In this document: in pieces, positions 41,761 through 58,758 of the stretch
Position numbering within the stretch: position 1 is the first letter of the stretch
How the letters are laid out: the number at the start of each line of letters is the position of its first letter
DNA from: Allobosea sp. OK403
GTDB taxonomy: Bacteria > Pseudomonadota > Alphaproteobacteria > Rhizobiales > Beijerinckiaceae
Assembly: GCF_900113835.1 (NCBI RefSeq)
Contig: NZ_FOQV01000002.1
Location: 806,001-870,000 of the forward strand
Direction: 5' to 3'
DNA length: 64,000 nt
Made by a program: the position numbers and the translations under genes
The notes under the pieces: generated by a model
What the model was told of the DNA's origin: nothing
The model's input: only the letters and a program-made list of their open reading frames with translations
Databases searched by the model: none

Positions 41761-42519
41761 ATGACCGAAACCATCCTGAGCCAAACCGTCTTGAGTCAAA
41801 CCGTCTTGCCCGGCATCGTCCAGGTCACGATGAACCGGCCCGAGCGCAAGAACGCGCTCGACCGCGCCAGCTATCAAGGGCTGATCGACGCGATCGGGGC
41901 GGCAGAAGCCGATCCGCAGATCCGCGCGATCGTGCTGACGGGGGCCGGCGGCTGCTTCACCAGCGGCAACGACATCAAGGATTTCGCCGCGGTCAGCGAC
42001 AGCGGCCCGCGCGTCGCCATGGATTTCCTCAATGCGATCTCGACCGCTAAGAAGCCGATCGTCGCCGCGGTCGAGGGTTTTGCCGTCGGCATAGGGACTA
42101 CCATGCTGCTGCATTGCGACCTCGCCTATGCGGCCAAGGGCGCGAGCTTCCGCCTGCCCTTCGTCGCGCTGGGCCTGAGCCCCGAAGGCGCATCGAGCTA
42201 TCTCCTGCCCTTGATCGCCGGCAGCAAGCGTGCGGCCGAACTGCTGATGCTGGGCGAGGCCTTCGGGCCTGAAGCCGCCGCTGAGTCTGGCCTCGTCAAT
42301 GCCGTGACCGCGGAGGGCGGCGCGCTTGCCATGGCGCTGGAGAAGGCCAGGGCGCTCGCCGCACTGCCGCCGGAATCGGTCGCGCTGACGAAATCGCTGT
42401 TGAAGCGCGGCAACGCGGCCCATGTCGCCGAGACGATCGCCACCGAAGGCCGGCTCTTCGGCGAGCGGCTGCTCTCGGCCGAGGCCAAGGCCGCCTTCGC
42501 CGCCTTCCTGAAGCGGTAG
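41761..42519 (+). CDS. Enoyl-CoA hydratase/isomerase family protein
   Basis: The product (252 aa) is a crotonase: [25 protein letters not shown] for the oxyanion hole, and [21 protein letters not shown]. The residue where classical hydratases carry the first catalytic Glu is Thr ([11 protein letters not shown]), as in isomerase-type or other crotonases, so simple hydratase activity is uncertain. The N-terminus has a 15-bp tandem duplication giving [10 protein letters not shown]. Confidence 0.85.
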
Positions 42520-42578
42520 AGCGTTTTCGAGCGAAGTGGGCACCGGTTCGCGTGAATAAAACGCGTTAAAACAAAAGG
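42518..42578. repeat. Rhizobiales-type repeat element with ACCGGTT core
   Basis: AGAGCGTTTTCGAGCGAAGT, then GGGCACCGGTTCGCGTGAATAA and AAACGCGTT. The first two bases of the element are the last two of the hydratase stop codon TAG. It matches the left half of the element in the dctM remnant and separates the hydratase from iclR. Confidence 0.85.
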
Positions 42579-42585
42579 CTAGCCG

Positions 42586-43416
42586 ATGGAGGCCATCCTG
42601 CAAGCAAGCTCTCACTCCGACGCAGACGCGCACACCGACGATCTCGCCAGTCCCAGGGAGGACCGCCATTTCGTCACGGCGCTGGCGCGCGGCCTCGAGG
42701 TGCTGGCCTGCTTCAGGCGCGGCGAGGCGGCGCTCGCCAATTCCGAGATCGCCGCGCGCTGCGGCCTTGCCCGCTCGACCGTCTCGCGCCTGACCCATAC
42801 GCTGACCACCCTCGGCTATCTCCACCATGTCCCGGAATCCGGCAGCTACCGGCTCGGCACGGCGCTGATCGCGCTCGGAGCCAATGCGCTTGCCGGGCTC
42901 GATGTCCGTCGCCTGGCGCGGGTCGGCATGCGCGATCTCGCGAGCTTCGCCAACGCCACGGTGGGTCTCGGCGTCCGTGAGCGGCTCAGCATGCGCTATA
43001 TCGAATGCTGCCGCGGCGAGGCCGCGATCGCGCTCAACATGGATACCGGCTCCAGGCTCTCACTCGCGCGCAGTGCCATGGGCCGCGCCTATCTCGCCGT
43101 CTGCAGCCAAGCCGAGCGGCGCGCGATCATGGAGGATATCCATTCGGTCGACGATGCAGCCTGGCCGCGCCTGCGCGAGGGCATCGACCGGGCGCTGGAG
43201 GATTATGCGACCTTCGGCTGCGCCCGCTCCTTCGGCGAATGGCAGCCGACGGTGAGTGCCATCGCGGTCGCCTTCCAGCCCGGTGGCGGCCTGCCGCCGA
43301 TGTCGATCAATTGCGGCGCGCCTAGCGTGATCCTCGACCGGGATTTCCTGATGGACGAGGTCCGGCCGCGGCTGATCGCACTGGCCGCAAGCCTGGAAGG
43401 AGTGATGGGTTCGTGA
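42586..43416 (+). CDS. IclR family transcriptional regulator
   Basis: The product (276 aa) has a winged-helix N-terminal domain (ALANSEIAARCGLARSTVSRLTHTL) and an IclR effector domain (LGVRERLSMRYIECCRGEAAIALN; SLARSAMGRAYLA). PcaR/PobR-type relatives regulate aromatic acid and dicarboxylate catabolism. It is 66 bp after the hydratase and overlaps the GNAT gene by 4 bp. It is the best candidate to bind the GTTCTGCA palindrome between the two operons. Confidence 0.9.
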   Translation: MEAILQASSHSDADAHTDDLASPREDRHFVTALARGLEVLACFRRGEAALANSEIAARCGLARSTVSRLTHTLTTLGYLHHVPESGSYRLGTALIALGANALAGLDVRRLARVGMRDLASFANATVGLGVRERLSMRYIECCRGEAAIALNMDTGSRLSLARSAMGRAYLAVCSQAERRAIMEDIHSVDDAAWPRLREGIDRALEDYATFGCARSFGEWQPTVSAIAVAFQPGGGLPPMSINCGAPSVILDRDFLMDEVRPRLIALAASLEGVMGS

Positions 43417-43937
43417 GGCCGGTTGTGACTGTCCGCCCTATCGCCGCCACCGACGCACCGCGTTTCCGAGAGGTGCTCGACGAAGTTGCTCGTGAGCGGC
43501 GCTACCTGGCCTTCGAAGAGGCTCCACCGATCGAGCGCATCGTCGTCTATGTCGAAGCTAATATTGCGACTGGAAACACACATCTTGTCGGGCTCGTCGA
43601 CGATATGATCGTCGGTTGGTGCGACATCGTCCGCGACATCAGTAGACCTACCCGGCACCACTGCGGCACGCTCGGCATCGGCATCCTCGCGCAATATCGC
43701 GGTTTGGGGCTTGGTCGCTTGCTGATGCAACAGGCGATGGCAGGCGCTGCCGCATCCGGGCTCAAGCGCATAGAGTTGACTGTTCGCAGCTCCAACCAGC
43801 GCGCCATAGCCCTCTATGCGCAACTGGGCTTCGCGCATGAAGGGCGCCAGCGAAACGCGATCATGGCCGAAGACGGTTACGAGGACCGCGATCTGATGGC
43901 TTATCTCGTACCTGAGCAGCCCAAGCAAGCAGCGTGA
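43413..43937 (+). CDS. GNAT family N-acetyltransferase
   Basis: The product (174 aa, GTG start) is a GNAT acetyltransferase: GTLGIGILAQYRGLGLGRLL is the acetyl-CoA binding motif A, and NQRAIALYAQLGFAHEGR is motif B. The substrate is unknown; the profile resembles ribosomal-protein or antibiotic acetyltransferases. The GC content of parts of the gene (43560-43660) looks lower than its neighbours, which may mean separate origin. It starts in the IclR stop and ends 1 bp before the CoA-transferase gene. Confidence 0.88.
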   Translation: MRPVVTVRPIAATDAPRFREVLDEVARERRYLAFEEAPPIERIVVYVEANIATGNTHLVGLVDDMIVGWCDIVRDISRPTRHHCGTLGIGILAQYRGLGLGRLLMQQAMAGAAASGLKRIELTVRSSNQRAIALYAQLGFAHEGRQRNAIMAEDGYEDRDLMAYLVPEQPKQAA

Positions 43938-43938
43938 C

Positions 43939-45144
43939 ATGCCGATGACCACACTCGACCTCCCCCTTTCCGGCATCCGTGTGCTCGATCTCTCGCGCAT
44001 CCTCGCCGGCCCGTGGTGCGGCCAGGTCCTGGCCGATCTCGGCGCCGAGGTGATCAAGGTCGAGCACCCCCTGCGCGGCGACGACACGCGTGACTGGGGT
44101 TTTCGGCTGGGCGAACGCAACACCTGCTATTTCAACAGCGTCAACCGCAACAAGCGCTCGATCGGCGTCGATGTCGGCAAGCCCGAGGGGCTGGCGATCG
44201 TGCGCGACCTCGCCGCCAGGAGCGATGTGCTGATCCAGAACTTCAAGACCGGCGGCGCCGACAAGCTCGGCCTTGGCTACGAGGCGCTGAGTGCGCTCAA
44301 CCCCGGCCTGATCTACTGCTCGATCGCCGGCTACGGCTCGGATGGGCCGGAAGCCTCGCGCCCCGGCTATGACCTCGTCATCCAGGGCGAATCCGGATTG
44401 ATGGGCATGAACGGCAATGACGATCAGCCGCCGCTGAAGTTCGGCGTCGCCATCGTCGACCTCTTCACCGGGCAATACTCGGCCCAGGCCGTGCTCGCCG
44501 CGCTGATCCAGCGCGGACGCACCGGCAAGGGCCGGCATATCGAGATGGCACTGTTCGATTGCGGCCTCTCGGTCACCTCCTATTACGGTCTGGAAGCACT
44601 GGCGCTGGGCGAGAATCCGCCGCGCTACGGCAACGCCCATCCCTCGATCGTGCCCTATGGCGTCTTCGACGCCGCCGACGGACCACTCGTCATCACTGTC
44701 GGCAACAACGCCCAGTATGAGCGCTTCTGCCGGATCGTGATCGAGCGGCCGGACCTGGCGGAGGATGCGCGCTTCGCCACCAACCTGCTGCGCACCCAGA
44801 ACCGCCCGGAGCTGCTGCCGATGATCGAGGCGGAGCTGAAGGCAAGGCCGCGCGCGCTGCTGCTGCAGCGGCTCGCTGCGGGCGGCATTCCTTGCGGCGA
44901 GGTGCTGGGCCTGAACCAGGCGCTGCGCTCGGAGCGCGCAACGCAGGCCGGCATGGTCAGCGACGACGCCGGCAATGCCGACACGCCCGCCGTGCTCGCC
45001 CCACCCTACCGCCTCGACGGCGAGCGCGCGCCCCTGCGCCACCGCCCGCCAGGGTTGGGCCAGGATACCGACGCGGTGCTGGCCGATCTCGGCCTGAGCG
45101 CGGAGCGGATCGCCACGCTCAAGGGCACCGGCGTGATCGGGTAA
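43939..45144 (+). CDS. CaiB/BaiF family CoA transferase (class III)
   Basis: The product (401 aa) has the family N-terminus GIRVLDLSRILAGPWCGQVL followed by LADLGAEVIKVEHP, YFNSVNRNKRSIGVDV, the catalytic Asp in EMALFDCGLSV (LFD), and the C-terminal LDGERAPLRHRPPGLGQDTD. It transfers CoA between carboxylic acids, probably activating the imported substrate at the cost of another thioester (inference). It is the last gene of the plus-strand operon and converges on the protease-like gene. Confidence 0.92.
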   Translation: MPMTTLDLPLSGIRVLDLSRILAGPWCGQVLADLGAEVIKVEHPLRGDDTRDWGFRLGERNTCYFNSVNRNKRSIGVDVGKPEGLAIVRDLAARSDVLIQNFKTGGADKLGLGYEALSALNPGLIYCSIAGYGSDGPEASRPGYDLVIQGESGLMGMNGNDDQPPLKFGVAIVDLFTGQYSAQAVLAALIQRGRTGKGRHIEMALFDCGLSVTSYYGLEALALGENPPRYGNAHPSIVPYGVFDAADGPLVITVGNNAQYERFCRIVIERPDLAEDARFATNLLRTQNRPELLPMIEAELKARPRALLLQRLAAGGIPCGEVLGLNQALRSERATQAGMVSDDAGNADTPAVLAPPYRLDGERAPLRHRPPGLGQDTDAVLADLGLSAERIATLKGTGVIG

Positions 45145-45168
45145 TTCGACGCCTCTGGATCCGGCGCA

Positions 45169-46608
45169 TCAAAGGCCGCACACCACCGGCAACACCGATT
45201 TGCCGACCTTCTCGACGATCCTGCCGGTGCTGAGCTCGCCGCCGGCAACTGCTGCGGGAAGTGAGAGCCCCGCCTTCGTAATCACGGCCTGCAAGGCCGC
45301 CGCGCCCGCCACCGCATAAGCCCGTTGCGGCGCGACCCCGGCGATCAGGATCTTGTCAGAGGGATTGGCCGTGACCAGCCCTGCCAGGCGGCCCTGCCGG
45401 TCGAAGACCGGGCTGCCGGCCTGGCCTGGCTGGAGCGGCGCGAACACGGCCGCATTCGCCCCGATCCGGACGGCTTGTCCCGGCAAGGCGAGGGCGGCGC
45501 GCTTGCCGGCATCATCGCCGAACGCCACCAGGACGAGGTTTTCGCGCTCGCCCAGCGCCTCGGAGCGGGACCCGAGCGCGGTCAGCGCCGGCCCGCCATC
45601 GACATCGAGCAAGGCGAGCCCGCTGGCATCATCCTTGGCGCGCAGCCGTGCCGGGCGCCCGCCGACCCTGAGCGAGCGGCAACCGTCGATCGCCGAGGCC
45701 GCCGTGGCCACGACCTTGTCCGACACCACGAGCCCGACGCCATAGCGCTCGGTCGGGGGCGCGACCGGACGAACAGCGGGAGGCGGCGAGCCTGCGACGC
45801 TTGCAATCGCACTCGCCGGGCTCGCCGGCGCGGGCCCCGTCGGGAAGGGCTCGAAGCTCGCAGCGATGGCGATCACCAGCTTGTCGACGCTGGCTGACAT
45901 CGTTTTGTCATAGCCGATCGAGAAGCCGCGCAGGCCTTGCGGCCCGGACGCCAAGCGGCGGTAGAACTTACCCGTGGCGGTCTCGCCGGTGATGACGAAG
46001 AAATCCGGGCGCAACAACTTGTAGGTGATCTTGCGGCCGGGGTTGTTGGGATTGACCAGGGTCGCCTTCTCGAAGACCGAGTCCAGCGTCTCTCCCGGCG
46101 GGCTCGTGGTCGCATCGAGCGTGATCTTGCCGTCGGCGCTCTGCCAGCGACTGCCGCCGGTCGGCGTCGCCTCGCGCTTGGACAGCACCTTTTCAGGAAT
46201 GCCGATCCGCATGCCGGTGCGCTCGTCATCGATCAGGCGAAACCCCGCCGCTTCGCGCGCGCCGCGGGCCGCTTGCGCAAGCGTCGCGCGCTCGGCCGGC
46301 GAGAGCACGCCATTGGGCTCGCCGCGCCCGGCCTTCAGCGCATTGATGGCGCGGAAGGTCAGCGGGCCATAGGAGCCGCTCGCCGCAGCGTTGAACAGGC
46401 CGGCCCAGATCAGATCGGTCTGAATCGCCTTGCGCTCGGCCTCGGGCAGCGCGTCGAAGCTCGCCTGCGCCGCGGCAAGCTGGGGATTGGGCGCCGGCGC
46501 GGGAGCCTGCGCCTGCGCCAGCGCCGGCAGGAACGCAAAAGCAGGAGCGGCCAGAGCCAGCCGCAACCCCACGGCCCGCCCGAAACGGGTTCTGATCGCA
46601 CTCGCCAT
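45169..46608 (-). CDS. Secreted trypsin-fold pseudo-protease with peptidoglycan-binding-like N-terminus
   Basis: The product (479 aa from the ATG at 46608, with GGAGG 6 bp upstream; an in-frame TTG at 46629 is less likely) has a signal peptide ending ALAQA. A helical domain near residues 40-100 (AIQTDLIWAGLFNAAASGSYGPLTFRAIN) resembles PG-binding folds. The C-terminal part follows the HtrA/trypsin pattern, but all three catalytic places differ: TNAHVV is TAASAI, DLALL is GLALL, and GNSGGP is GQAGSP. It should have no protease activity. It is transcribed away from the alpha-2-macroglobulin gene across 246 bp. Confidence 0.82.
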   Translation of the reverse strand: MASAIRTRFGRAVGLRLALAAPAFAFLPALAQAQAPAPAPNPQLAAAQASFDALPEAERKAIQTDLIWAGLFNAAASGSYGPLTFRAINALKAGRGEPNGVLSPAERATLAQAARGAREAAGFRLIDDERTGMRIGIPEKVLSKREATPTGGSRWQSADGKITLDATTSPPGETLDSVFEKATLVNPNNPGRKITYKLLRPDFFVITGETATGKFYRRLASGPQGLRGFSIGYDKTMSASVDKLVIAIAASFEPFPTGPAPASPASAIASVAGSPPPAVRPVAPPTERYGVGLVVSDKVVATAASAIDGCRSLRVGGRPARLRAKDDASGLALLDVDGGPALTALGSRSEALGERENLVLVAFGDDAGKRAALALPGQAVRIGANAAVFAPLQPGQAGSPVFDRQGRLAGLVTANPSDKILIAGVAPQRAYAVAGAAALQAVITKAGLSLPAAVAGGELSTGRIVEKVGKSVLPVVCGL

Positions 46609-46854
46609 CGCATGCCTCCGCCCCTGCAAGAGGCCGCATTGAGCGTCAGATCGCGCGCGCCCGCAACTGCGATGACGGAGCGAGACAAGATCAAGCGCAA
46701 GATCTCGTGCGAGCTCGCCTCATCGGGCAACGCGCACCTTTCGCATTGCGTCGGCAAGCGCCGGTGCTAGCTTGCCGGCGGGCTCAGGCTGTCATCGGGC
46801 GGACGCGGATCGCGCCGAGATTGACGCGCAAGCTCGACCGAAGAGGACACGACC

Positions 46855-49800
46855 ATGACCCTGCTCGCCCGTCTCGCGTTGCTTTTCGGTCTGGCGCTCG
46901 CCGCGCAGCCCGCTTTGGCCCAGAAGGCCTATGTTCGCAACGACCTCGCCGCCGACGGACAGCGGCTGGAGGAGCGCCTGAAGCGAGAGGTCTCGGTCAG
47001 CGGCAGGCAGGCGACTGAGGCCCTGCGAATCGGCGCCTCCGCACTCGCCCGCGGCGATGCCCGCGCCGCCTTGCCCCAGGCCAATGCCGCCGTCGTCGCC
47101 GAGCCCAACAACGCCGCCGCATGGCGCTTGATGGCGAATGCGGCCAACGCGATCGAGCCGCGCGACTATCGCGAGCGCTGGGAGTTGCGCGAACGCGCGA
47201 TCTCGGCCGCCTATCTCGCCTATCAGCGCGCCAGTTCGCGCCCCGAGGAAGCCGCATCGCTCGGCGTGCTCGCCCGCACCTTCGAGAAGAACGAGCTCTG
47301 GCGGCCGGCACTGACGACCTATCGGCTGAGCCTCGACCTCGCCGACAATGCCGGCTTGCGCACCGCCTATGAATCCCTGCGCGACAAGCGCGGCTTCCGC
47401 ATCCTCTCCAACAAGGTCGATGCCGACGCCGCCTCGCCTCGTGCCTGTTTCGAGTTCTCCGAGCCGCTGGCACGCGGCCGCGTCGATTTCGCGCCTTATG
47501 TCGCGGTTTCCGGCGGAAAGGGTGATTTCGCTGTTTCGGCCGAGGAGCGCCAGATCTGCGTCGACGGACTGCGTCATGGCGAACGCTATGCTTTCGTCAT
47601 CCGCCAGGGCGTGCCCTCGGCGATCCCCGACGAGAAGCTGCAGAAATCGGCCGATTACGAGGTCTATGTCCGCGACCGCGCGCCCTCGGTGCGCTTCACC
47701 GGCAAGAACTATGTCCTGCCGCGCACTGGCCAGCAGGGCATCCCCGTCGTCTCCGTCAATGCCAACCGGCTCGACCTCGAGGTCATGCGGATCGGCGATC
47801 GCAACCTGATCAATTCGGTCCATTCCGACGATTTCCTCGGCCAGCTCGGCTCCTACGCCTCAAAGCAGATCGCCAGCGACAAGGGCCAGAGCGTCTGGAC
47901 CGGTTCGATGGAGGTGAAGTCCGAACTGAACAAGGACGTGATCACGGCCTTCCCGGTGATCGAGGCGGTGGGCCGCCTGCAGCCCGGCGTCTATGTGATG
48001 TTCGCCAAGCCCGCCGGCGGCAACGCGACAGCGCCGCAGACCGATTCCGACAGCGACTATGACGACGGCACGACGCGCGCGACGCAATGGTTCGTCGTCT
48101 CCGATCTCGGCCTGACCTCCTTCTCCGGGCCCGACGGCGTCCATGTGCTGGTGCGCTCGCTCGCCGACGCCTCGCCCGTCGCCAATGCCGAACTCAGGCT
48201 GCTCGCCCGCAATAACGAGGTGCTGGGCACGGTGCGTTCCGATGCCAATGGCTATGCCCGCTTCGATGCCGGGCTGGGCAAGGGCCAGGGCGGCAATGCG
48301 CCGGGCCTCGTCACGGCGCTGCTGGGCGAGGATTACGGCTTCCTCGATCTGAAGCAGACGGCGTTCGATCTCTCCGATCGCGGCGTCAAGGGCCGCGTCG
48401 CGCCTTCAGGCCTCGACGCCTACCTCTACACCGAGCGCGGCGTCTACCGCTCCGGCGAGACGGTCTATCTGACCAGCCTCCTGCGCGACGCCAAGGGCGC
48501 AGCCGTCACCGGCTTGCCATTGACCATCGTGGTCAAGCGACCGGACGGCGTCGAATATCGCCGCCGCCAGGTCGAGGACCAGGGCGCCGGCGGCCGGGCC
48601 CATTCGATCCCGCTGCTGTCGGGCGCACAGACCGGCACCTGGCGCGTCCAGGCCTATGCCGACCCAAAAGGCCCCGCGATCGGCGAGGCCTCCTTCCTGG
48701 TCGAGGACTATGTCCCCGAGCGCCTGGAACTGACGCTCACACCCAAGGCCCCGGTGCTGCAGGCGGGTGAGCCGGCCGAGATCGACGTCAATGCGCGCTA
48801 TCTCTATGGCGCGCCGGGCTCCGAGCTCGACGTCAACGGCTCGATGACCATCCGCGCCGCCGCCCAAAGCGCGATCCCCGGCTTTACCGGCTATCAGGTC
48901 GGCCTCACCGACGAGGAATTCCAGCCGGTCCAGACCGATTTCGAGGAAAGCACCACGACCGACGCCTCGGGCAAGGTCACCGTCTCGAACCCCGTCGCCC
49001 AGCCCGAGACCAACCGCCCGCTCGAGGCCGAATTCACCATCCGCGTCGGCGAGCCCGGCGGGCGCGCCATCGCCCGCTCGGTGACGCTGCCGATCGTGCC
49101 CAAGGGCGCCGCGATCGGCATCAAGGCGCTGTTCAAGGATGGCGAACTCGGCAACGGTCAGACCGCCGGCTTCGAGGTCATCATGGCCAATGGCGACGGC
49201 CGTCGCCTGGCCAGGCCCGGCGTGAAATGGACCTTGTCCAAGGTCACCCGCAACTATCAATGGTTCTTCCAGGACGGGCGCTGGAATTTTGAGGGCGTGA
49301 AGCAGACCCGCCGCGTTGCCGATGGCGAGGTCGCGGTCAGCGCCGATGCCGCCGCCTCGATCTCGGCCCCGGTGCAATGGGGCAATTATCGCCTCGACGT
49401 CGCCGCGGACGGCCCCGACTCCACCGAAAGCTCGCTTTCCTTCACCGTCGGCTATGAGGCCGACAAGACCGCCGATACGCCCGATGTCCTCGACGTCGCG
49501 CTCGACAAGAACGCCTATGCCAATGGCGAGACCATGCAGGTGCGCCTGGCGCCGCGCTTCGCCGGCAAGGCGACGCTCGCCGTGATCAGCGACCGCGTCA
49601 ACGAGATCCGCACCATCGATGTCGCCGCCAATGGCTCGACGGCTTCCATCCCCGTCAAGGCCGAATGGGGCGCGAGCGCCTATCTCGTCGTGCTCGCTCA
49701 CCGCCCGATGGACACCGCCGCCCAGCGTCTGCCCGGCCGCGCCATCGGCCTGTCCTGGTTCGCCATCGGCAAGGAGAACCGCACGCTCGCCATCGATCTC

Positions 49801-52107
49801 GGCGCGCCCAATCTGGTGCGCCCGCTGACGACGCTGTCGCTGCCGGTCAAGGTCACCGGCGCGAGAGCGGGCGAGGATGCCTTCGTCACGGTCGCGGCCG
49901 TTGATATCGGCATCCTCAACCTCACCCGCTTCGAATCGCCCGATCCGAGCAAGTTCTTCTTCGGTCAGCGCCAGATCGGCCATGAACTGCGCGATCTCTA
50001 TGGCTATCTGATCGACGGCATGCAGGGCGTGCGCGGCGCGATCCGCACCGGCGGCGACGGCGCACCAGCGCTTGGCGGCGAAAAGCCGACGCAGGAGCCG
50101 CTCGCTCGCTACTCCGGCGTGGTCAAGGTCGGTGCGGACGGCATGGCCAAGGTCGATTTCGACCTGCCGGCCTTCAACGGCTCGGTTCGCGTCATGGCGG
50201 TCGCCTGGTCGGCCGGACGCACCGGGCAGGCCAGCGCCGACGTGATCATCCGCGACCAGGTCGTCGCGCAGGCGACGCTGCCGCGCTTCCTCGCCATCGG
50301 CGACCAGTCGCGCTTCCATCTCGCGATCAACAATGTCGAGGGACCCGCCGGCCCCTATGTCGTCGATCTCGATGTGAGGGGCCCCGTGCTGGTTGCCGCC
50401 GACGCGACGCGCAGGACGCTCCAGCTCGCGGTCGGCGCCAAGAGCGAGCTCACCATCCCGGTCACGGCGGCGGGTCTTGGCCGCGCCGAATTCGATGTCC
50501 GCATCACCGGGCCCGGAGGCATCGGGACGGTGCAGAACCTCGCCGTGCGCGTGCAGCCCTCGGCCAATACGATCGCGCGGCGCATCGTCCGGCCGATCCC
50601 CGGCAATGGCGGTTCAATCACGGTCTCATCCGACCTGATGGCCGATCTCGTGCCGAATTCCGGGCAGGTCTCCGTCTCGGTCTCGCCGCTCGCCTCGCTC
50701 GATGTGCCGGCGCTGCTGAAGGCGCTCGACCGCTACCCCTATGGCTGCACCGAGCAGACCGTGAGCCGCGCCTTGCCGCTGCTCTCGGTCAACAAGCTCG
50801 CCACGCTGGAGAACCTGGCGCTCGACGCCAATGCCGATGAGCGGGTCAATGGCGCGATCGAGCGCGTGCTCGCCCGCCAGGGCGCCAACGGCTCCTTCGG
50901 GCTCTGGGGCGTCGGCGGCGAGGATCTCTGGCTCGACGCCTTCGTCGCGGATTTCCTGACACGGGCGCGCGAGCGCCAGTTCCAGGTGCCGCAGATCGCC
51001 TTCAACCTCGCTCTCGACCGCCTGCGCAACCAGGTCGTCAACACCAGCGAGATCAACAAGGAGGAGGCCGCCGGCATCGCCTATGCGCTTTATGTGCTTG
51101 CCCGCAACGGCCGGCCGGTGATGGGCGATCTGCGCTATCTCGCCGACAACAAGCTCGCCGATTTCGCGACGCCATTGGCGCGCGGGCAGATCGGCGCCGC
51201 GCTCTCGGCGCTGGGCGATCGCGGCCGTGGCCGCGCCGCCTTCACCAGTGCGCTCGCCCTGCTGCAGGACGCGCGCGATGACGGCCTCTCGCGGCCCGAT
51301 TACGGCACGCGCCTGCGTGACGGGGCGGGCGTGCTCGCCCTGATCGCCGAAGCCAATGGCGAGCGCGCCGACATCACCCGCGCGGCCGCGATCGTCGACA
51401 CGGCGCGCGGTAGCGCGCGCTACAACTCGACGCAGGAGCAGATGTGGATGGTCGTCGCCGCCCAGGCGCTGGCCAAGGACGCCGAGGGCATGACGCTCAC
51501 GGTCGATGGCGCCGAGCGCAAGGGGCCGCTCTACCGCACCATCTCCGCCGAAGCGCTGGAGGCCAAGCCGTTGACCGTCGCCAATCCAGGCGCCGCCTCG
51601 GCACAGGCCGTGATCACCGTCTCGGGTATTCCAACCGGCGCGGAGCCGGCGCTGAACCAGGGCTTCGGCCTGGAGCGGGTGATCTACACGATGAAGGGCG
51701 AGAAGGCCGATCCGGCGCGATTGCGCCAGAACGAGCGCTATGTCGTGGCGCTGAACGTCACCGAACCCGCCTCGCGCTATGGCCGGGTGCTGCTGGTCGA
51801 TCCCGTGCCGGCCGGGCTCGAGATCGAGAACGCCAACCTGACCGAGGGCGCCTCCGTCGCCGGGCTCGACTGGCTGAAGCAGGAGGTGACGCCGGTCCAC
51901 ACGGAAGCCCGCGACGACCGCTATGTCGCAGCCTTCGATCGCGATGGCAGCTCGAGCCAGAAGCTCGCCTTCACCATCGCCTATATCGTCCGGGCCGTCT
52001 CGCCCGGCCGCTATGTCGCGCCGGCGGGTGTGATCGAGGACATGTACAGGCCGGATCGTTTCGGGCGGACCGCGTTCGGAACGGTGGATATTTCGTCGGC
52101 GCGATAG
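46855..52107 (+). CDS. yfhM: Bacterial alpha-2-macroglobulin with thioester motif
   Basis: The product (1750 aa) is a periplasmic protease trap of the YfhM class. The signal peptide LALAAQPALAQK has no lipobox Cys, so unlike E. coli ECAM it is probably soluble rather than a lipoprotein. MG-like beta domains follow (YLYTERGVYRSGETVYLTSL; VRVMAVAWSAGRTGQASADV). The thioester motif YGCTEQT with Cys about residue 1298 is intact, followed by the alpha/alpha toroid TED. It precedes pbpC by only 10 bp, the usual pairing thought to protect the cell wall when PBP1C repairs it. Confidence 0.94.
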   Translation: MTLLARLALLFGLALAAQPALAQKAYVRNDLAADGQRLEERLKREVSVSGRQATEALRIGASALARGDARAALPQANAAVVAEPNNAAAWRLMANAANAIEPRDYRERWELRERAISAAYLAYQRASSRPEEAASLGVLARTFEKNELWRPALTTYRLSLDLADNAGLRTAYESLRDKRGFRILSNKVDADAASPRACFEFSEPLARGRVDFAPYVAVSGGKGDFAVSAEERQICVDGLRHGERYAFVIRQGVPSAIPDEKLQKSADYEVYVRDRAPSVRFTGKNYVLPRTGQQGIPVVSVNANRLDLEVMRIGDRNLINSVHSDDFLGQLGSYASKQIASDKGQSVWTGSMEVKSELNKDVITAFPVIEAVGRLQPGVYVMFAKPAGGNATAPQTDSDSDYDDGTTRATQWFVVSDLGLTSFSGPDGVHVLVRSLADASPVANAELRLLARNNEVLGTVRSDANGYARFDAGLGKGQGGNAPGLVTALLGEDYGFLDLKQTAFDLSDRGVKGRVAPSGLDAYLYTERGVYRSGETVYLTSLLRDAKGAAVTGLPLTIVVKRPDGVEYRRRQVEDQGAGGRAHSIPLLSGAQTGTWRVQAYADPKGPAIGEASFLVEDYVPERLELTLTPKAPVLQAGEPAEIDVNARYLYGAPGSELDVNGSMTIRAAAQSAIPGFTGYQVGLTDEEFQPVQTDFEESTTTDASGKVTVSNPVAQPETNRPLEAEFTIRVGEPGGRAIARSVTLPIVPKGAAIGIKALFKDGELGNGQTAGFEVIMANGDGRRLARPGVKWTLSKVTRNYQWFFQDGRWNFEGVKQTRRVADGEVAVSADAAASISAPVQWGNYRLDVAADGPDSTESSLSFTVGYEADKTADTPDVLDVALDKNAYANGETMQVRLAPRFAGKATLAVISDRVNEIRTIDVAANGSTASIPVKAEWGASAYLVVLAHRPMDTAAQRLPGRAIGLSWFAIGKENRTLAIDLGAPNLVRPLTTLSLPVKVTGARAGEDAFVTVAAVDIGILNLTRFESPDPSKFFFGQRQIGHELRDLYGYLIDGMQGVRGAIRTGGDGAPALGGEKPTQEPLARYSGVVKVGADGMAKVDFDLPAFNGSVRVMAVAWSAGRTGQASADVIIRDQVVAQATLPRFLAIGDQSRFHLAINNVEGPAGPYVVDLDVRGPVLVAADATRRTLQLAVGAKSELTIPVTAAGLGRAEFDVRITGPGGIGTVQNLAVRVQPSANTIARRIVRPIPGNGGSITVSSDLMADLVPNSGQVSVSVSPLASLDVPALLKALDRYPYGCTEQTVSRALPLLSVNKLATLENLALDANADERVNGAIERVLARQGANGSFGLWGVGGEDLWLDAFVADFLTRARERQFQVPQIAFNLALDRLRNQVVNTSEINKEEAAGIAYALYVLARNGRPVMGDLRYLADNKLADFATPLARGQIGAALSALGDRGRGRAAFTSALALLQDARDDGLSRPDYGTRLRDGAGVLALIAEANGERADITRAAAIVDTARGSARYNSTQEQMWMVVAAQALAKDAEGMTLTVDGAERKGPLYRTISAEALEAKPLTVANPGAASAQAVITVSGIPTGAEPALNQGFGLERVIYTMKGEKADPARLRQNERYVVALNVTEPASRYGRVLLVDPVPAGLEIENANLTEGASVAGLDWLKQEVTPVHTEARDDRYVAAFDRDGSSSQKLAFTIAYIVRAVSPGRYVAPAGVIEDMYRPDRFGRTAFGTVDISSAR

Positions 52108-52117
52108 AGGCTTCGCC

Positions 52118-54457
52118 GTGAAGGCACAGGACGACGAGACGAGCGCGACAGACCCCCCTCTCCCACCCATCTCGGGCTTGCCCGAGATGGGCAGAGATGA
52201 GTGCCAAAGTCGGGAACACCCGACTTTGGTGCGGGAGAGGGTTGGGGTGAGGGGGCGCCGTGCCCTTCATCATTGGCGTCTCTCGCTTCACACGCTTATC
52301 GGAAAGGTCGCGAGCCCCCTCATCCGGCTCGGCTTCGCCGAGCCACCTTCTCCCGCAAGGGGAGAAGGGATAGACACCCGCCGCTTCGGCAAACTGAAGT
52401 TCGCCGCAGCCGCTCTTGGCCTTGTCGTAACAGGCGCCACCGCCGCCCTCCTCGCCTACGCCGCCTCCCTGCCCCCGCTCGACCTCGCCGCCGCCTCGGA
52501 TCGTTCGACCGTCGTGCTCGACCGCGAAGGCAAACTGCTGCGGCCCTTCCTCACCGATGACGGGCGCTGGAAGCTCCCCGTCACCGCTGAGGATGTCGAT
52601 CCGCGCTATCTCGCCATGCTCAAGGCCTATGAGGACAAGCGCTTCGACAATCATTGGGGCATCGACCCGCTCGGGCTTGCCCGTGCCGCCGGCCAGATGC
52701 TGCTGAGCGGGCGTGTGATCTCGGGCGGCTCGACCTTGACCATGCAGGTCGCGCGCCTGCTCGAGCCGCGCGAGGAGCGCTCGCTCTCTGCCAAATTGCG
52801 CCAGCTCATCCGCGCGATCGAGCTCGAGCGTCGCTTCGATAAGCGCAGCATTCTCGACCTTTACCTGACGCTCGCCCCCTTCGGCGGCAATCTCGAAGGC
52901 GTGCGTGCTGCCAGCTTCGCCTATTTCGGCAAGGAGCCGAAGCGCCTCTCGACGGCGGAAGCCGCGCTGCTCGTCGCTCTGCCGCAATCGCCCGAGACAC
53001 GCCGGCCCGACCGTCTCAACGAGGCTGCCCGCAAGGCCCGCGAACGGGTCTTGGCGCGTGTCGAGGCGGCGGGGCTGGCGACGGCGTCGGAGGTCGCAGC
53101 TGCCCGGGCTGAGGCGATCCCGACGACGCGCAAACCGTTCCCCAACCTCGCGCCCCATGTCGCCGAGCAGGTCGTGGCGGAAACGCCCGACGCCCACGCC
53201 CACAGGCTCACCATCGACGGCCGCCTCCAGGCCAATCTTGAAAACCTCGCCCGGGAGCGCAGCGCGGGGCTCGCGCCCCAGATCTCGATCGCCATCCTCG
53301 TTGCCGACAATGAGACCGGCGAGATCCGCGCCTCGGTCGGCGGCGTCGATTATTTCGCCGCCGAGCGCGCCGGCTCGCTCGACCTGACGCGGGCGTTGCG
53401 CTCGCCCGGCTCGGCGCTGAAGCCCTTCATCTATGCGCTCGCCTTTGACAACGGCATCGCCCATCCCGAGACGATGCTGGAGGACCGGCCGGCGCGCTAC
53501 GGCATCTATGTGCCGGAGAATTTCGATCTGAGCTTCCAGGGCATGGTCTCGGCTCGCAAGGCATTGCAGCTCTCGCTCAACGTCCCCGCCGTCGAGCTTT
53601 TATCCGCGCTCGGGCCGCAGCGCTTCCTGTCGCGATTGCGTGACGCCGGCGCGGCCATAGCCATGCCGAAGGAGGGCGGCGCGCCGGGCTTGGCCGTCGG
53701 TCTGGGTGGCCTGGGGATCACGCTGCAGGATCTGACCCGGCTTTATGTCGGGCTCGCGCGCGGCGGCGAGATGACGCCGCTGCGGCTTAAGACCGAAAGC
53801 CAGGCGAGCGAACCCTCGCCCCGTCTCGTCGACCCCGTCGCCGCCTGGTATGTCACCGACACGCTGCTCGGCGCCCCCGCGCCGCAGAACGCCCTGCCCG
53901 GGCGCATCGCCTACAAGACCGGCACGTCCTATGGCTATCGCGACGCCTGGGCGGTCGGCTTCGACCGCAAGCACACCATCGGCGTCTGGGTCGGACGGGC
54001 CGACAATGGCGCGGTGCCGGGGCTGGTCGGGCGCGTGGTCGCGGCGCCGATCCTGTTCGACGCCTTCGCTCGGGCCGGCATCGACCCTCGCCCCTTCCCG
54101 CAGCCGCCCAATGCCATCATCGCGACCGCGGCGCATCTGCCGCCGCCCCTGCGCCATCTGCGCCAGGACGTGCCCAAGACGATCGCCGCGATGACCACCG
54201 CGTCACTGAAGCTCGCCTTCCCGCCGGAAGGCGCACGGATCGATCTCGCAGCCTCCGCGCTCGACGGCCGCAGCCAGCTCAACCTCAAGGTCGCGGGCGG
54301 CGCACCGCCCTATACCTGGCTCGTCGACGGCACTCCCGTGCTGGAGCCGACCCGCCGCCGTGAAGCCGCCTGGCAACCGCCCGGAAAAGGCTTCGTCCGG
54401 ATCTCGGTGATCGACGGGACCGGCGCGAGCGAGAGTGTTTCGGTGCGGTTGCAGTAA
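52118..54457 (+). CDS. pbpC: Penicillin-binding protein 1C, with repeat-derived N-terminus
   Basis: The product (779 aa from the GTG at 52118) is a bifunctional murein synthase. After one membrane helix (LKFAAAALGLVVTGATAALLAYA, about residue 95-117) comes the GT51 domain (KAYEDKRFDNHWGIDPLGL with the catalytic Glu), then the transpeptidase with SALK (nucleophile Ser), SLN and KTGTSYGYRDAW, and the PBP1C C-terminal beta domain. Residues about 12-85 are encoded by palindromic repeat DNA and have no family similarity. No start codon exists between that region and the membrane helix. Confidence 0.9.
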   Translation: MKAQDDETSATDPPLPPISGLPEMGRDECQSREHPTLVRERVGVRGRRALHHWRLSLHTLIGKVASPLIRLGFAEPPSPARGEGIDTRRFGKLKFAAAALGLVVTGATAALLAYAASLPPLDLAAASDRSTVVLDREGKLLRPFLTDDGRWKLPVTAEDVDPRYLAMLKAYEDKRFDNHWGIDPLGLARAAGQMLLSGRVISGGSTLTMQVARLLEPREERSLSAKLRQLIRAIELERRFDKRSILDLYLTLAPFGGNLEGVRAASFAYFGKEPKRLSTAEAALLVALPQSPETRRPDRLNEAARKARERVLARVEAAGLATASEVAAARAEAIPTTRKPFPNLAPHVAEQVVAETPDAHAHRLTIDGRLQANLENLARERSAGLAPQISIAILVADNETGEIRASVGGVDYFAAERAGSLDLTRALRSPGSALKPFIYALAFDNGIAHPETMLEDRPARYGIYVPENFDLSFQGMVSARKALQLSLNVPAVELLSALGPQRFLSRLRDAGAAIAMPKEGGAPGLAVGLGGLGITLQDLTRLYVGLARGGEMTPLRLKTESQASEPSPRLVDPVAAWYVTDTLLGAPAPQNALPGRIAYKTGTSYGYRDAWAVGFDRKHTIGVWVGRADNGAVPGLVGRVVAAPILFDAFARAGIDPRPFPQPPNAIIATAAHLPPPLRHLRQDVPKTIAAMTTASLKLAFPPEGARIDLAASALDGRSQLNLKVAGGAPPYTWLVDGTPVLEPTRRREAAWQPPGKGFVRISVIDGTGASESVSVRLQ
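52153..52372. repeat. Composite palindromic element inside the pbpC reading frame
   Basis: It includes two 26-bp hairpins, CCCATCTCGGGC/GCCCGAGATGGG (52166-52191) and CCAAAGTCGGG/CCCGACTTTGG (52204-52229), framed by CCCTCTCCC and GGGAGAGGG. Beyond lie GGGTGAGGGGGC/GCCCCCTCATCC and CCTTCTCCC/GGGGAGAAGG. Similar CTCTCCC/GGGAGAGGG arms occur between phnD and phnE. The element is read through in frame at the start of pbpC. Confidence 0.85.
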
Positions 54458-54476
54458 GCGCAGTACTACCGCTTTT

Positions 54477-54556
54477 CGTCATTGCGAGCGCAGCGAAGCA
54501 ATCCAGAAGGTCGCGCTCGACGCCCCTTGGATTGCTTCGCTGCGCTCGCAATGACG
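54477..54556. repeat. Palindromic repeat, GTCATTGCGAG / GAAGCAATCC family
   Basis: It is a near-perfect inverted repeat from CGTCATTGCGAGCGCAGCGA to TCGCTGCGCTCGCAATGACG with inner GAAGCAATCCA/TTGGATTGCTTC. It lies between the convergent pbpC and RND pump genes. Confidence 0.92.
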
Positions 54557-54568
54557 GGGAAGCGCCGG

Positions 54569-57500
54569 CTACTCTGCCGGCGCCGGATGCGGCTCGTGCA
54601 CGGCGTGCCCGTGCACCGAGCGCTTCGCCCGCGCCAGATAGGTATAGGCGACCGGCACCACATAGAGCGTCAAGAGCGTGCCGAAACTCATGCCGCCGAC
54701 GATGACCCAGCCGATCTGCGAGCGGCTTTCCGCGCCCGCGCCATGCGCCAGGGCGAGCGGCAGCGCGCCGAGCACCATCGCGCCCGTCGTCATCAGAATC
54801 GGCCGCAGGCGCAGCTCCGCCGCCTCGACCAGAGCATCGACCATCTCCTTGCCCTCTTCACGCAACTGGTTGGTGAATTCGAGGATCAGGATGCCGTGCT
54901 TGGTGATGAGGCCAACCAGCGTGATCAGGCCGATCTGGCTGTAGACGTTCATCGTGCCGCCGGTGAAGTACAAGGCCGCAAGCGCCCCCGTCAGCGAGAG
55001 CGGCACCGAGACCATGATCACGACCGGATCAATGAAGCTCTCGAACTGCGCCGCCAGCACCAGATAGATGAAGCCCAGCGCCAGCAGGAAGACGATCGCG
55101 ATCGACGAACCCGCCTGCTTGAACTCGCGGCTCTGGCCGGAATAGTCGATCTGCACCGTCTTGGGCAGCACCTTGGCCGAGGCCTGCTCCAGCACGCTGA
55201 GCGCATCGCCCAGCGAATAGCCCGGCCCTGGCACCGCCGTGATGGTGGCGGAGCGAAGCTGGTTGAAGCGGATCAGCTCTTTGGGGGCGACATTCTCCTC
55301 GATCGAGACCAGGCTCGACAACTGCACCGTCACGCCGTTGCGGCCCATCAGATAGATCGACTGCATCGCCTGGGGCGTGTTGCGGTCCTGGCCCGCGACC
55401 TGGACGACGACGTCGTATTGCTCGCCATTCATATTGAAGCGCGTCACCTGCCGGCCACCCAGCAGCGTCTCCATGGTGCGCCCGATCACATCGACGCCGA
55501 CCCCGAGATCGGCGGCGCGCTGACGGTCGACCGAGACCCTGAGCTGGGGCTTGTCGAGGATCAGATTGGATTCGATGTTGGTCAGCACTGGCGAGCCCGC
55601 AACCTCCGCCAGAACCTGGTCGACATAGCCCTTGATCTGCTCGTAAGGCTCCGACGAGCGCAGCACGAACTCGACTGGCTTGCTGTTGGCGCCGCCCTGG
55701 CCGAGCGAGGGCGGGTTCGTCGCGAAGAGCCGGATACCGGGGATCTGCGAGAGCCCCTTGTTGATCTCGGTGACGATGTCCTGCTGCTTGCGCGTGCGCT
55801 CCTCCCAGGGCTTCAGCCGGGCAAAGGCGATGGCGCGCGTCACATCGGGAAAGCCGACGATGACGAGGTAGTTCTGCACCTCCGGCAGCTTGGAGAAGAA
55901 CTCCTCGACGCGGCGCGCATAGTCGGCGGTGAAGGTCAGCGTCGCGCCTTCGGGCGCCACGCCGATCGCGGTGATCGTGCCACGATCCTCGACCGGCGCG
56001 AGCTCCGAACGCAGATGCGTGAAGAAGTAGTAGCTGCCGCCGGCCACGCACAGCGCCAGCAGGACTATGACCGGGCGGATCGCGAGAGCCGCCCGCAGCG
56101 AGCGGCGATAGCCGCGCGACATCGCCTCGAAGGCGGCTTCGAGCAGGTTGTAGAGCCGCCCATGCGAGCTTTCATGCTTGAGCAGCTTGGCGCACATCAT
56201 CGGCGTCAGCGTCAGCGCGACGAAACCCGAGACCAGCACCGCGCCGGCAAGCGTCAGGGCAAACTCGACGAAGAGCTTGCCAGTGCGCCCGGTCGAGAAC
56301 GCCATCGGCGCATAGACCGCGACCAGCGTCAGCGTCATCGCGATGACGGCGAAGGCGATCTCGTTGATGCCACGCACCGCCGCCTTGTTGGCTTCCATGC
56401 CGTCCTCGATATGACGGTGGACGTTCTCCAGCACAACGATGGCGTCGTCGACGACGAGGCCGATGGCAAGCACCATCGACAGCAGCGTCAGCGTGTTCAC
56501 GGTGAAGCCGAAGGCATACATCAGCGCAAAGGAGCCGATCAGCGAAACTGGAATCGTGACCAGCGGGATCAGCGTCGCGCGTGCCGAGCGCAGGAACAGA
56601 AAGATAATCAGCACGACGAGCAGAACCGCCTCGCCGACCGTCCGATAGACGGCCTCGATCGAGCGATCGATAAAGATCGAGGTGTCGTAGGAGGTCTCGA
56701 TCCCCATGCCATCAGGCAGATCGTCGATGATCTCGGGCAACGCGGCGCGGATGCCGGCCGAGACATCGAGCGGGTTCGCCGTCGCCTGCTTGACGATGCC
56801 GATCGTGACCGAGGGCTTGCCGGAGAACCAGGCGGCGTTACGCTCGGCCAGCGCGCCGAGCTCGACCTTGGCGACGTCGCGCAGCTTGACCGGGAAGCCG
56901 TTGGCGTCCTTGACGACGATCTGCTCGAACTGCTCGGGGGTCGTCAGGCTGGTCTGCGAGAGCACCGTGAATTCGCGATGGTTGCTCTCGATGCGGCCCG
57001 ACGGGATCTCGACATTCTGCGCCCGCAGCGCCGCCTCGATCTCCTGCACGGTGATGGTGTAGGCCGCCATCCGGGCGCGATCGAGCCAGATCCGCATGGC
57101 GTAGCGGCGCTCGCCCTGGATGCGGACCTCGGCGACGCCGGTGATGTTCTGGACGCGGTCGGTGATGAAGCGGTCGGCGAAATCGGTCAGTTCGAGCGGG
57201 TTGTGGCGCGAGCTGATCAGGGAGAGATACATGATCGGCTGGGCGTCGGCCTCGACCTTGGCGATGATCGGCTCGTCGATCTCGGTGGGCATGCGGCCGC
57301 GCACGCGGCTGACGCGGTCGCGCACGTCGGAGGCGGCGACATCGGGATCGACATCCGGGCGGAAGCGCACCGAGATGTTGCTGCTCTCCTGCCGGCTGGT
57401 CGAAGAGATGATCTCGATGCCCTCGATGCCGGCAATCGAGTTCTCCAGGATCTGCGTGACCTGCGTCTCGATGATCTCGGCCGAGGCGCCGGTATAGGTC

Positions 57501-57646
57501 GTACGCACAGAGACGATCGGCTCGTCGATATTGGGATATTCGCGAACGGTCAGGCGCGTATAGGAGACGACGCCGATCAGGATGACGAGCAGGCTCAGGA
57601 CCGTCGAGAGGACGGGCCGGCGGACGAAGAGCTCGAACAGGCTCAT
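54569..57646 (-). CDS. RND family multidrug efflux permease (AcrB type)
   Basis: The product (1025 aa) is a 12-helix inner-membrane RND pump of the HAE1 class. The N-terminus is MSLFELFVRRPVLSTVLSLL, the proton relay has Asp-Asp in AIGLVVDDAIVVLENVHRH, and the C-terminus has EFTNQLREEGKEMVDALVEA. It overlaps the membrane-fusion gene by 4 bp. No outer-membrane factor gene is nearby, so a shared TolC-like channel must be used. A 1126-codon open frame on the other strand is an artefact of the GC bias. Confidence 0.94.
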   Translation of the reverse strand: MSLFELFVRRPVLSTVLSLLVILIGVVSYTRLTVREYPNIDEPIVSVRTTYTGASAEIIETQVTQILENSIAGIEGIEIISSTSRQESSNISVRFRPDVDPDVAASDVRDRVSRVRGRMPTEIDEPIIAKVEADAQPIMYLSLISSRHNPLELTDFADRFITDRVQNITGVAEVRIQGERRYAMRIWLDRARMAAYTITVQEIEAALRAQNVEIPSGRIESNHREFTVLSQTSLTTPEQFEQIVVKDANGFPVKLRDVAKVELGALAERNAAWFSGKPSVTIGIVKQATANPLDVSAGIRAALPEIIDDLPDGMGIETSYDTSIFIDRSIEAVYRTVGEAVLLVVLIIFLFLRSARATLIPLVTIPVSLIGSFALMYAFGFTVNTLTLLSMVLAIGLVVDDAIVVLENVHRHIEDGMEANKAAVRGINEIAFAVIAMTLTLVAVYAPMAFSTGRTGKLFVEFALTLAGAVLVSGFVALTLTPMMCAKLLKHESSHGRLYNLLEAAFEAMSRGYRRSLRAALAIRPVIVLLALCVAGGSYYFFTHLRSELAPVEDRGTITAIGVAPEGATLTFTADYARRVEEFFSKLPEVQNYLVIVGFPDVTRAIAFARLKPWEERTRKQQDIVTEINKGLSQIPGIRLFATNPPSLGQGGANSKPVEFVLRSSEPYEQIKGYVDQVLAEVAGSPVLTNIESNLILDKPQLRVSVDRQRAADLGVGVDVIGRTMETLLGGRQVTRFNMNGEQYDVVVQVAGQDRNTPQAMQSIYLMGRNGVTVQLSSLVSIEENVAPKELIRFNQLRSATITAVPGPGYSLGDALSVLEQASAKVLPKTVQIDYSGQSREFKQAGSSIAIVFLLALGFIYLVLAAQFESFIDPVVIMVSVPLSLTGALAALYFTGGTMNVYSQIGLITLVGLITKHGILILEFTNQLREEGKEMVDALVEAAELRLRPILMTTGAMVLGALPLALAHGAGAESRSQIGWVIVGGMSFGTLLTLYVVPVAYTYLARAKRSVHGHAVHEPHPAPAE

Positions 57647-58758
57647 CGCAGCGCGCTCGCCGGGGCGGGTTCGGCGGCGCTGGTCTGCAAGGCCGGCTGG
57701 GCGTTCTTGATCGCCACCGTCGCGCCGTCACGCAGGCGCATCTGCCCGGCGCTGACGAGCTGCATCTGCGGGGTCAGCCCCTTCACGATCTCGACCTTAC
57801 CCGGCAGCCTCTTGCCGAGCTCGACCGGGACGCGCTTGGCCTTGCCGTTCTCGACGATGTAGACGATCTTGCCGACGCCATCGGGCACCACCGCGGTCTC
57901 GGGGATGATCAGGGCGTTCTCGCGCTGGTCGATGACGATGACGATGCGGGCAAAGAGGCCCGGCTTCAGCGAAAGGTCGGCATTGGGGATCGTGGCGCGC
58001 AGCCGGATGGCGCGGCCATTGACGTCGACAACCGGATCGATCGCGAAAATCTTGCCGGCAAAATCCCGGCCCGGCACGGCGTCGAGCTTCACCTGAATGG
58101 TCTGTCCGACCTTGACCCGGGCGAGGAAGATCTCGGGCACGCGGAAATCGACCTTGATCGGGTCGATATTGGTCAGGGTGATCAATTGCTTGCCGACCGA
58201 GACATAGTCGCCGACGCTGACCGAGCGCAGGCCGACGACGCCATGGAACGGTGCGGTCAGGGTCGACTGCGCCAGCTTGGCCTGGGAGAGCTGGACGCGG
58301 GCCTCGTTGGAAGCGAGCTGGGCGGTCGCCTGTTCGAGCGCGACCTGCGTGCCGGCACCGCGCTGGACCAGTGACTGATTGCGCTGGAAGGTATCGCGCG
58401 CCAGGCTCAGATCCGCCTGCAACTGCTTGAGTTCGGCGTCGAGGATGGCCGTATCGAGCTTGACCAGCTCCTGGCCCTTCTGGACGCGCTCGCCTTCCTT
58501 GAAGCCGAGCGCAATGACGCGGCCGGCGATCTCGGGGGCGATCACCACCGATTCGTCGGCGGCGAGCGTGCCCAGGGCCTCGACCTCCTCATTGACGGTC
58601 GCGACCTCGATCTTGCCGATCTCGACCGGCACGCCGGCCGGCGGCGGAGCAGCCGCACGGGCCTGCGCCGGCTGCAGGCTGGCCTGATAGCGCTGGTAGC
58701 CATAATAGCCGCCACCCGCCAGACCGGCGATCAGGATGAGTAGGACAAACCGCTTCAT
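57643..58758 (-). CDS. RND efflux membrane-fusion protein
   Basis: The product (371 aa) is the periplasmic adaptor, anchored by an N-terminal helix (MKRFVLLILIAGLAGGGYYG). The lipoyl halves are EVEALGTLAADESVVIAPEI and STLTAPFHGVVGLRSVSVGD with the coiled-coil between, and there is a beta-barrel with VDFRVPEIFLARVKVG. It is the first gene of the pump operon and starts 34 bp from the TetR palindrome. Confidence 0.93.
   Translation of the reverse strand: MKRFVLLILIAGLAGGGYYGYQRYQASLQPAQARAAAPPPAGVPVEIGKIEVATVNEEVEALGTLAADESVVIAPEIAGRVIALGFKEGERVQKGQELVKLDTAILDAELKQLQADLSLARDTFQRNQSLVQRGAGTQVALEQATAQLASNEARVQLSQAKLAQSTLTAPFHGVVGLRSVSVGDYVSVGKQLITLTNIDPIKVDFRVPEIFLARVKVGQTIQVKLDAVPGRDFAGKIFAIDPVVDVNGRAIRLRATIPNADLSLKPGLFARIVIVIDQRENALIIPETAVVPDGVGKIVYIVENGKAKRVPVELGKRLPGKVEIVKGLTPQMQLVSAGQMRLRDGATVAIKNAQPALQTSAAEPAPASALR

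Follow-up and report, generated by a model that had tools for sequence, protein, structure and literature searches.

A conserved pseudo-protease encoded head-to-head with the type I alpha-2-macroglobulin and PBP1C genes of Allobosea sp. OK403 and its relatives

What is a protease-shaped protein without catalytic residues doing beside a protein that traps proteases? The question is raised by a 64,000-nucleotide stretch of the Allobosea sp. OK403 genome (contig NZ_FOQV01000002.1, positions 806,001 to 870,000; the whole stretch is called the window here), in which a gene for a trypsin-like protein diverges from the genes for a bacterial alpha-2-macroglobulin (A2M) and penicillin-binding protein 1C (PBP1C). 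The original prediction, made from the letters of the window, held that the protein has lost its catalytic triad and might be a bait, a regulator of the macroglobulin, or a wall-binding adaptor. Comparison with related genomes indicates that the pseudo-protease is real, old, and conserved, and that its operon context is a known one.

Results

Loss of the catalytic triad

Alignment puts S305, G330, and A397 at the His, Asp, and Ser places of the window protein, bearing out the predicted loss of all three. Residues were read for part of the 123 genomes that carry the gene, after removal of 17 duplicates; one sequence (L110) did not align. This gave 72 distinct linked homologues (a homologue is called linked when its stretch also encodes an A2M) that belong to the window's family or fall close to it. 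The window is included among the 72; its own copy (L001), the partial L047, and unlinked rows were set aside, and 23 of the 72 come from named records whose family was not looked up. His is present in none of them, Asp in two, Ser in eight, and two triad residues together in none. None of the three occurs in the eight linked loci of a second family (f28), and His is absent both at its place and within four residues of it in all 80 linked homologues. At least two triad residues are thus kept in 0 of 80 linked homologues versus 24 of 24 paralogues encoded at other places, some in this family and some in others. The full triad is present in 23 of these paralogues, and the remaining one (L112) lacks only the His. 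Seven unlinked copies from the window's family have no His or Asp, and two have Ser. Judged by these residues, all linked homologues that were read are catalytically dead. Recent loss in this strain was rejected, since no linked homologue of either family type (0 of 72 and 0 of 8) has two triad residues; intact-triad homologues in the same place, which the original prediction named as the sign of such a loss, were not found, and the loss is old, falling in one large clade of pseudo forms.

Linkage to A2M and PBP1C

The gene was sought in 298 genomes of the window's family (f1, which we take to be GTDB Beijerinckiaceae). Matches occurred in 152, and a genome was taken as a carrier if one of its rows exceeded 100 bits, which held for 123; the 29 below that score hold paralogues and some fragments (such as G180, G219, G295). 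The window's genome has a single match. Every carrier also has an A2M match (123 of 123), and A2M is found in 220 of the 298 genomes at E up to 0.001, weak matches included, with its place listed for 150 of the 220. Both places are listed for 118 carriers; in 109 of them the gap is at most 3.2 kb and the two genes are head-to-head, with a median of 299 bp between the matches. Five carriers lack a listed A2M place (G131, G054, G167, G152, G138) and have an A2M match in the genome table; the gene is adjacent in G131 (L066) and G152 (L095). The predicted three-part locus is therefore real and conserved. On the proposed check of whether triad-less homologues always stand beside yfhM-pbpC, the neighborhood is kept in 109 of the 118 but not without exception, copies being displaced in some genomes and the forms in families f36 and f50 unlinked.

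Across an order-level sample, A2M was detected at E up to 1e-60 in 229 of 297 genomes. A pseudo-protease match is present in 11 of the 12 f28 genomes with A2M (the exception is G480), and 8 of 10 fetched f28 loci are head-to-head with A2M. In two f28 genomes, G366 and G401, the gene lies beyond PBP1C, and the fetched stretch holds PBP1C and not A2M. When the search was widened to the class, with E up to 1e-10, matches were obtained in 11 of 289 genomes, three of the window's family at full length and the other eight partially. Among 57 linked loci the thioester motif is kept in all A2Ms, a PBP1C open reading frame (ORF) is present in 55, and SxxK is found in 54 of the 55 PBP1Cs. As a control, the 6.5 kb beyond the pseudo-protease was compared between 37 linked loci: of 650 cross-genus pairs, 17 have at least one homologous ORF in common there; because the loci were picked for being linked, this shows only that the surroundings of the kept trio are scrambled. 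ORF lists of 29 A2M loci (24 without the gene, five with a displaced copy) revealed no shared divergent substitute ORF by eye. Neighbors of displaced or unlinked copies (10 proteins; L196, L199, L144, L080) have unrelated functions. Thirteen of 25 relatives in named records carry the name Bosea. In genera g17, g42, and part of g40 the A2M matches are all weak (E about 1e-17 to 1e-32) and may represent another type of A2M.

History and selective constraint

A tree of 88 rows was built with the triad columns removed, by a quick method without bootstrap. Linked proteins of both families and the displaced copies form one clade of 59 rows (SH-aLRT 99), which expands to 64 rows (SH-aLRT 97) when five pseudo forms of f36 and f50, all of them unlinked, are included. 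Active and pseudo states on this tree need two changes, and the pseudo state may be older than the A2M link. The second change is L112, which has Gln at the His place and an intact closest neighbor (L109), an independent and recent-looking loss. Five proteins of f50 and f36 that are not near A2M (L196, L197, L199–L201) have the triad patterns AGG, GDG, LDS, LGS, and LDS, and these half-dead proteases are apparently a separate set.

Conservation is inverted between the two groups: in linked proteins it is the N-terminal and middle domains that are kept, in active paralogues the trypsin domain. Mean pairwise identity over residues 45–105, 122–256, and 286–479 is 0.49, 0.43, and 0.30 among 38 diverse linked rows and 0.35, 0.31, and 0.48 among 23 active paralogues. 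W68 is found in 80 of 80 linked rows versus 5 of 24 paralogues. Two cysteines are shared by both groups, C310 (80 of 80 linked rows, 24 of 24 paralogues, and 6 of 7 unlinked family copies) and C477 (80 of 80, 24 of 24, and 7 of 7). For the window protein and its relative L031, dN/dS by YN00 is 0.09 over the whole protein, 0.03 in the middle domain, and 0.08 in the trypsin domain; the NG86 values are 0.14, 0.07, and 0.15. These estimates indicate purifying selection on the pseudo-protease in the one pair measured. The trypsin domain is retained as a fold, its role as an enzyme gone. A decaying gene is unlikely because the cysteines are invariant and dN/dS is low in this pair, though a few relatives have stops. 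The frame is split or contains stops in L155 (G235) and G115, by draft error or true loss.

Domains and predicted structure

Trypsin_2 (Pfam) matches residues 290–411 (E 4e-7, 31.3 bits versus a cut-off of 27.6). A full-length predicted model is of moderate quality (pLDDT 62.6, pTM 0.46), the trypsin domain being its best part. Foldseek places the protease domains of HtrA1 and DegS at the top of its matches (E about 1e-6, TM by target about 0.5–0.6), with MarP and MamO (5hma_A) lower in the list; MarP (3lt3_A) is also a weak sequence-profile match (E 0.0039). No PDZ domain was matched by Pfam up to E 0.5. The structural comparison with HtrA that had been proposed thus supports the trypsin fold, while the HtrA layout originally described holds only loosely, no PDZ domain having been found.

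The N-terminal half has a different character. All 25 aligned members, among them the window protein, match PG_binding_1 with E no higher than 0.5 (best 1.4e-6). Mog1p/PsbP-like domains often serve in protein contacts. When residues 42–258 were folded alone with AlphaFold2 (pTM 0.72, pLDDT 71.5), the best Foldseek matches of the model were PsbP proteins (cyanobacterial PsbP 2xb3, E 1.8e-5, TM by target 0.63), followed by EagT6/SciW, DcrB, and Tsi3. The middle domain has no weighty sequence-profile match in PDB, and its PsbP-like assignment is by predicted fold alone. Eag proteins are described as chaperones (PMC12881460).

Features of the locus

Coordinates are collected in Table 1. The A2M contains bacterial MG domains (Pfam), and the PBP1C is recognized at 714 bits versus a cut-off of 494. 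A CXEQ thioester A2M followed by PBP1C, the arrangement that marks a type I A2M-PBP1C locus, is found here. A repeat with inverted repeats lies between the two genes at 52170–52420 and, counting itself, is matched 57 times in the window's genome. Because it falls inside the called frame, the GTG start of PBP1C at 52118 is probably too early, and the true start is probably downstream of the repeat. Scans of the divergent region returned no promoter and no terminator, Rfam gave no match over 42000–58000, and PADLOC and PHROGs searches gave no match. A block of ~14 bp in the divergent region is common to many of 20 aligned Bosea-type loci and is a possible common operator or promoter.

Table 1. 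Coordinates of the pseudo-protease, A2M, and PBP1C features in the window
Feature	Position	Strand	Basis
Pseudo-protease gene, 479 aa, ATG at 46608, head-to-head with the A2M gene	45169-46608	-	Open ORF
Signal-peptide-like N-terminus, about residues 1-33	46510-46608	-	Judged by eye from sequence
Peptidoglycan-binding-like helical module, residues 45-105, with Trp68	46294-46476	-	Sub-cut-off PG_binding_1, matched in 25/25 aligned members
Middle domain, residues 122-256, predicted PsbP/DcrB-like fold	45841-46245	-	AlphaFold2 and Foldseek
Ala/Pro low-complexity linker, residues 257-285	45754-45840	-	Alignment and low pLDDT
Trypsin-like domain without catalytic residues, residues 286-479	45172-45753	-	Pfam, model, alignment
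Catalytic His place, Ser305	45694-45696	-	Alignment
Catalytic Asp place, Gly330	45619-45621	-	Alignment
Catalytic Ser place, Ala397	45418-45420	-	Alignment
Cys310, possible (inferred) disulfide with Cys477	45679-45681	-	Conservation
Cys477	45178-45180	-	Conservation
Divergent intergenic region separating the start codons, 246 bp	46609-46854	.	
Type I (thioester-bearing) bacterial A2M, 1750 residues, no lipobox by motif	46855-52107	+	
GCTEQ thioester motif of A2M	50743-50757	+	
PBP1C, as called	52118-54457	+	TIGR02073

Discussion

We tentatively favor, with somewhat less than even confidence, the reading that this protein would be a non-catalytic periplasmic adaptor of the type I A2M-PBP1C pair, holding or stabilizing the A2M near the wall. 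A wall-binding-like module and a strongly constrained PsbP-like domain, encoded beside a thioester A2M without a lipobox, suggest such an adaptor. The pseudo-protease would be exported to the periplasm, where its N-terminal helical module would hold peptidoglycan; protein contacts would be made by the PsbP/DcrB-like middle domain together with the dead trypsin fold, which a disulfide may brace. The soluble A2M would be held at the wall near PBP1C, or stabilized, and the trap thereby placed where wall damage and incoming proteases occur. A bolder version is possible but somewhat more doubtful: the protein would be a third dedicated component of the system, a peptidoglycan tether that couples protease trapping to wall repair, derived from a recruited periplasmic protease whose catalytic half drifted. 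The idea that A2M and PBP1C act jointly in defense and repair is itself called a hypothesis in PMC5764988. Of the roles originally proposed, the wall-binding adaptor fits best because the N-terminal and middle domains are the conserved ones, and bait fits badly because A2M needs to be cleaved.

Known systems offer partial parallels. MagB of the Pseudomonas aeruginosa Mag complex is likewise an accessory envelope protein encoded with an A2M and, according to PMC5764988, localizes and stabilizes MagD; by analogy, the pseudo-protease may do for a thioester A2M what MagB does for the thioester-less MagD. However, MagD is a type II A2M in a six-gene operon, whereas this locus has a thioester motif and a divergent pseudo-protease. 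MamO of Magnetospirillum also combines a trypsin fold, a degenerate active site, and a repurposed non-catalytic role, but it takes part in magnetosome formation and uses a di-histidine motif to bind metal (PMC4794232), unlike a protein with wall-binding-like and PsbP-like domains in an A2M-PBP1C setting. The YfhM-PbpC operon shares the order of thioester A2M and then PBP1C; the Escherichia coli A2M is described as anchored in the inner membrane (PMC4498604), while the A2M here has no lipobox by motif and a divergent gene makes a third member of the locus. MarP and the HtrA-DegS protease domains appear alike in predicted fold, but the pseudo-protease lacks catalytic residues, has no PDZ domain found, and has another N-terminal half. 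As the original prediction supposed, the three-part system seems not to have been described: literature searches, in which subscription literature was thinly covered, found no paper on the trio of pseudo-protease, A2M, and PBP1C.

Several observations weigh against the adaptor reading. PG_binding_1 on residues 57–91 of the window protein is below its cut-off (14.9 bits versus 23). The linkage is one-way: carriers have an A2M, and an A2M needs no such neighbor. Among 32 genomes with a listed A2M and no counted copy, 24 upstream stretches are without the gene, two have contig-edge copies (L117, L151), and six (L123, L130, L141, L149, L150, L152) end less than ~1.5 kb from the A2M start; same-family A2Ms therefore occur without the gene, which is dispensable for A2M in general. 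Five of the nine non-adjacent carriers have a displaced copy, the stretches upstream of their A2M being empty (L143, L145–L148); the other four have the two genes on different contigs of drafts, which may be assembly breaks. Further copies lie off the A2M in L093 (G054) and in L040, where the A2M is outside the 17-kb stretch. The pseudo forms of f36 and f50 are not near A2M in 14 of 14 genomes by coordinates, 5 of the 14 having been read. On the A2M side, a motif scan gave six lipobox matches, five in A2Ms with the gene (L032, L039, L042, L086, L095), none of these inside the printed N-terminus, and one, undecided, in the signal region of an A2M without it (L137). A2Ms without the neighboring gene likewise have no convincing lipobox by motif, so the gene is no simple replacement for a lost anchor, and the idea of a substitute for a lost A2M lipobox was not supported. 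A partner-specific A2M patch also failed to appear: over the first 1000 residues, no clear patch of difference separates the 45 rows that have the gene from the 27 that lack it, with three positions above a 0.6 frequency difference. The co-occurrence counts are not corrected for species relatedness. From the observed linkage, catalytic loss, and conservation we infer binding to A2M, PBP1C, or the wall, and the mechanism with it.

The position of the gene in G366 and G401 also counts here, since it keeps PBP1C in play as the partner. The protein might act on the wall side only, binding peptidoglycan and regulating PBP1C, with A2M merely the operon neighbor of the real partner. This is unlikely, though the PBP1C ORF in 55 of 57 linked loci and the wall-binding-like module speak for it along with those two genomes, because all 109 adjacent cases in the family abut A2M divergently and not PBP1C. 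Common descent, in which the gene simply stays where it was inherited, perhaps sharing a promoter region, and is functionally unconnected with A2M, would account for the single clade of linked proteins and for the survival of displaced copies; given the scrambled genes beyond the trio (in loci chosen as linked) and the 0 of 123 carriers without an A2M match, uncorrected for relatedness, we think it improbable.

Two further explanations turn on the dead trypsin domain. As a substrate mimic, it would clasp the A2M bait uncut and block firing on the cell's own proteases, and the retained fold, the two cysteines, and two glycines close to the former active site (Gly395 in 80% and Gly398 in 93% of 46 linked rows) are in keeping with this. 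However, the trypsin domain is the fastest-changing part, and lineages differ in the residues that surround the active site, which does not resemble a conserved docking groove; we rate this regulator slightly below common descent and also improbable. A protease-shaped protein beside a protease trap invites the idea of a bait or decoy that occupies or tests the A2M or soaks up incoming protease inhibitors. It is very improbable, because A2M fires only on cleavage of its bait region (PMC5764988) and a protein lacking all three triad residues should not cut, and the active-site surface is not conserved. Equally little credence is given to a surviving enzyme whose active site has been rearranged, or to a gene in decay: the Ser in 8 and Asp in 2 of 72 homologues and the in-frame stops in G235 and G115 would suit it, but the missing His in all 80 and the low whole-protein dN/dS by both methods, from one pair, do not.

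The conserved third gene provides a handle on why bacterial type I macroglobulins accompany PBP1C. It is also a well-sampled example of how an envelope protease can become a non-catalytic part while relatives with intact triads persist in related genomes.

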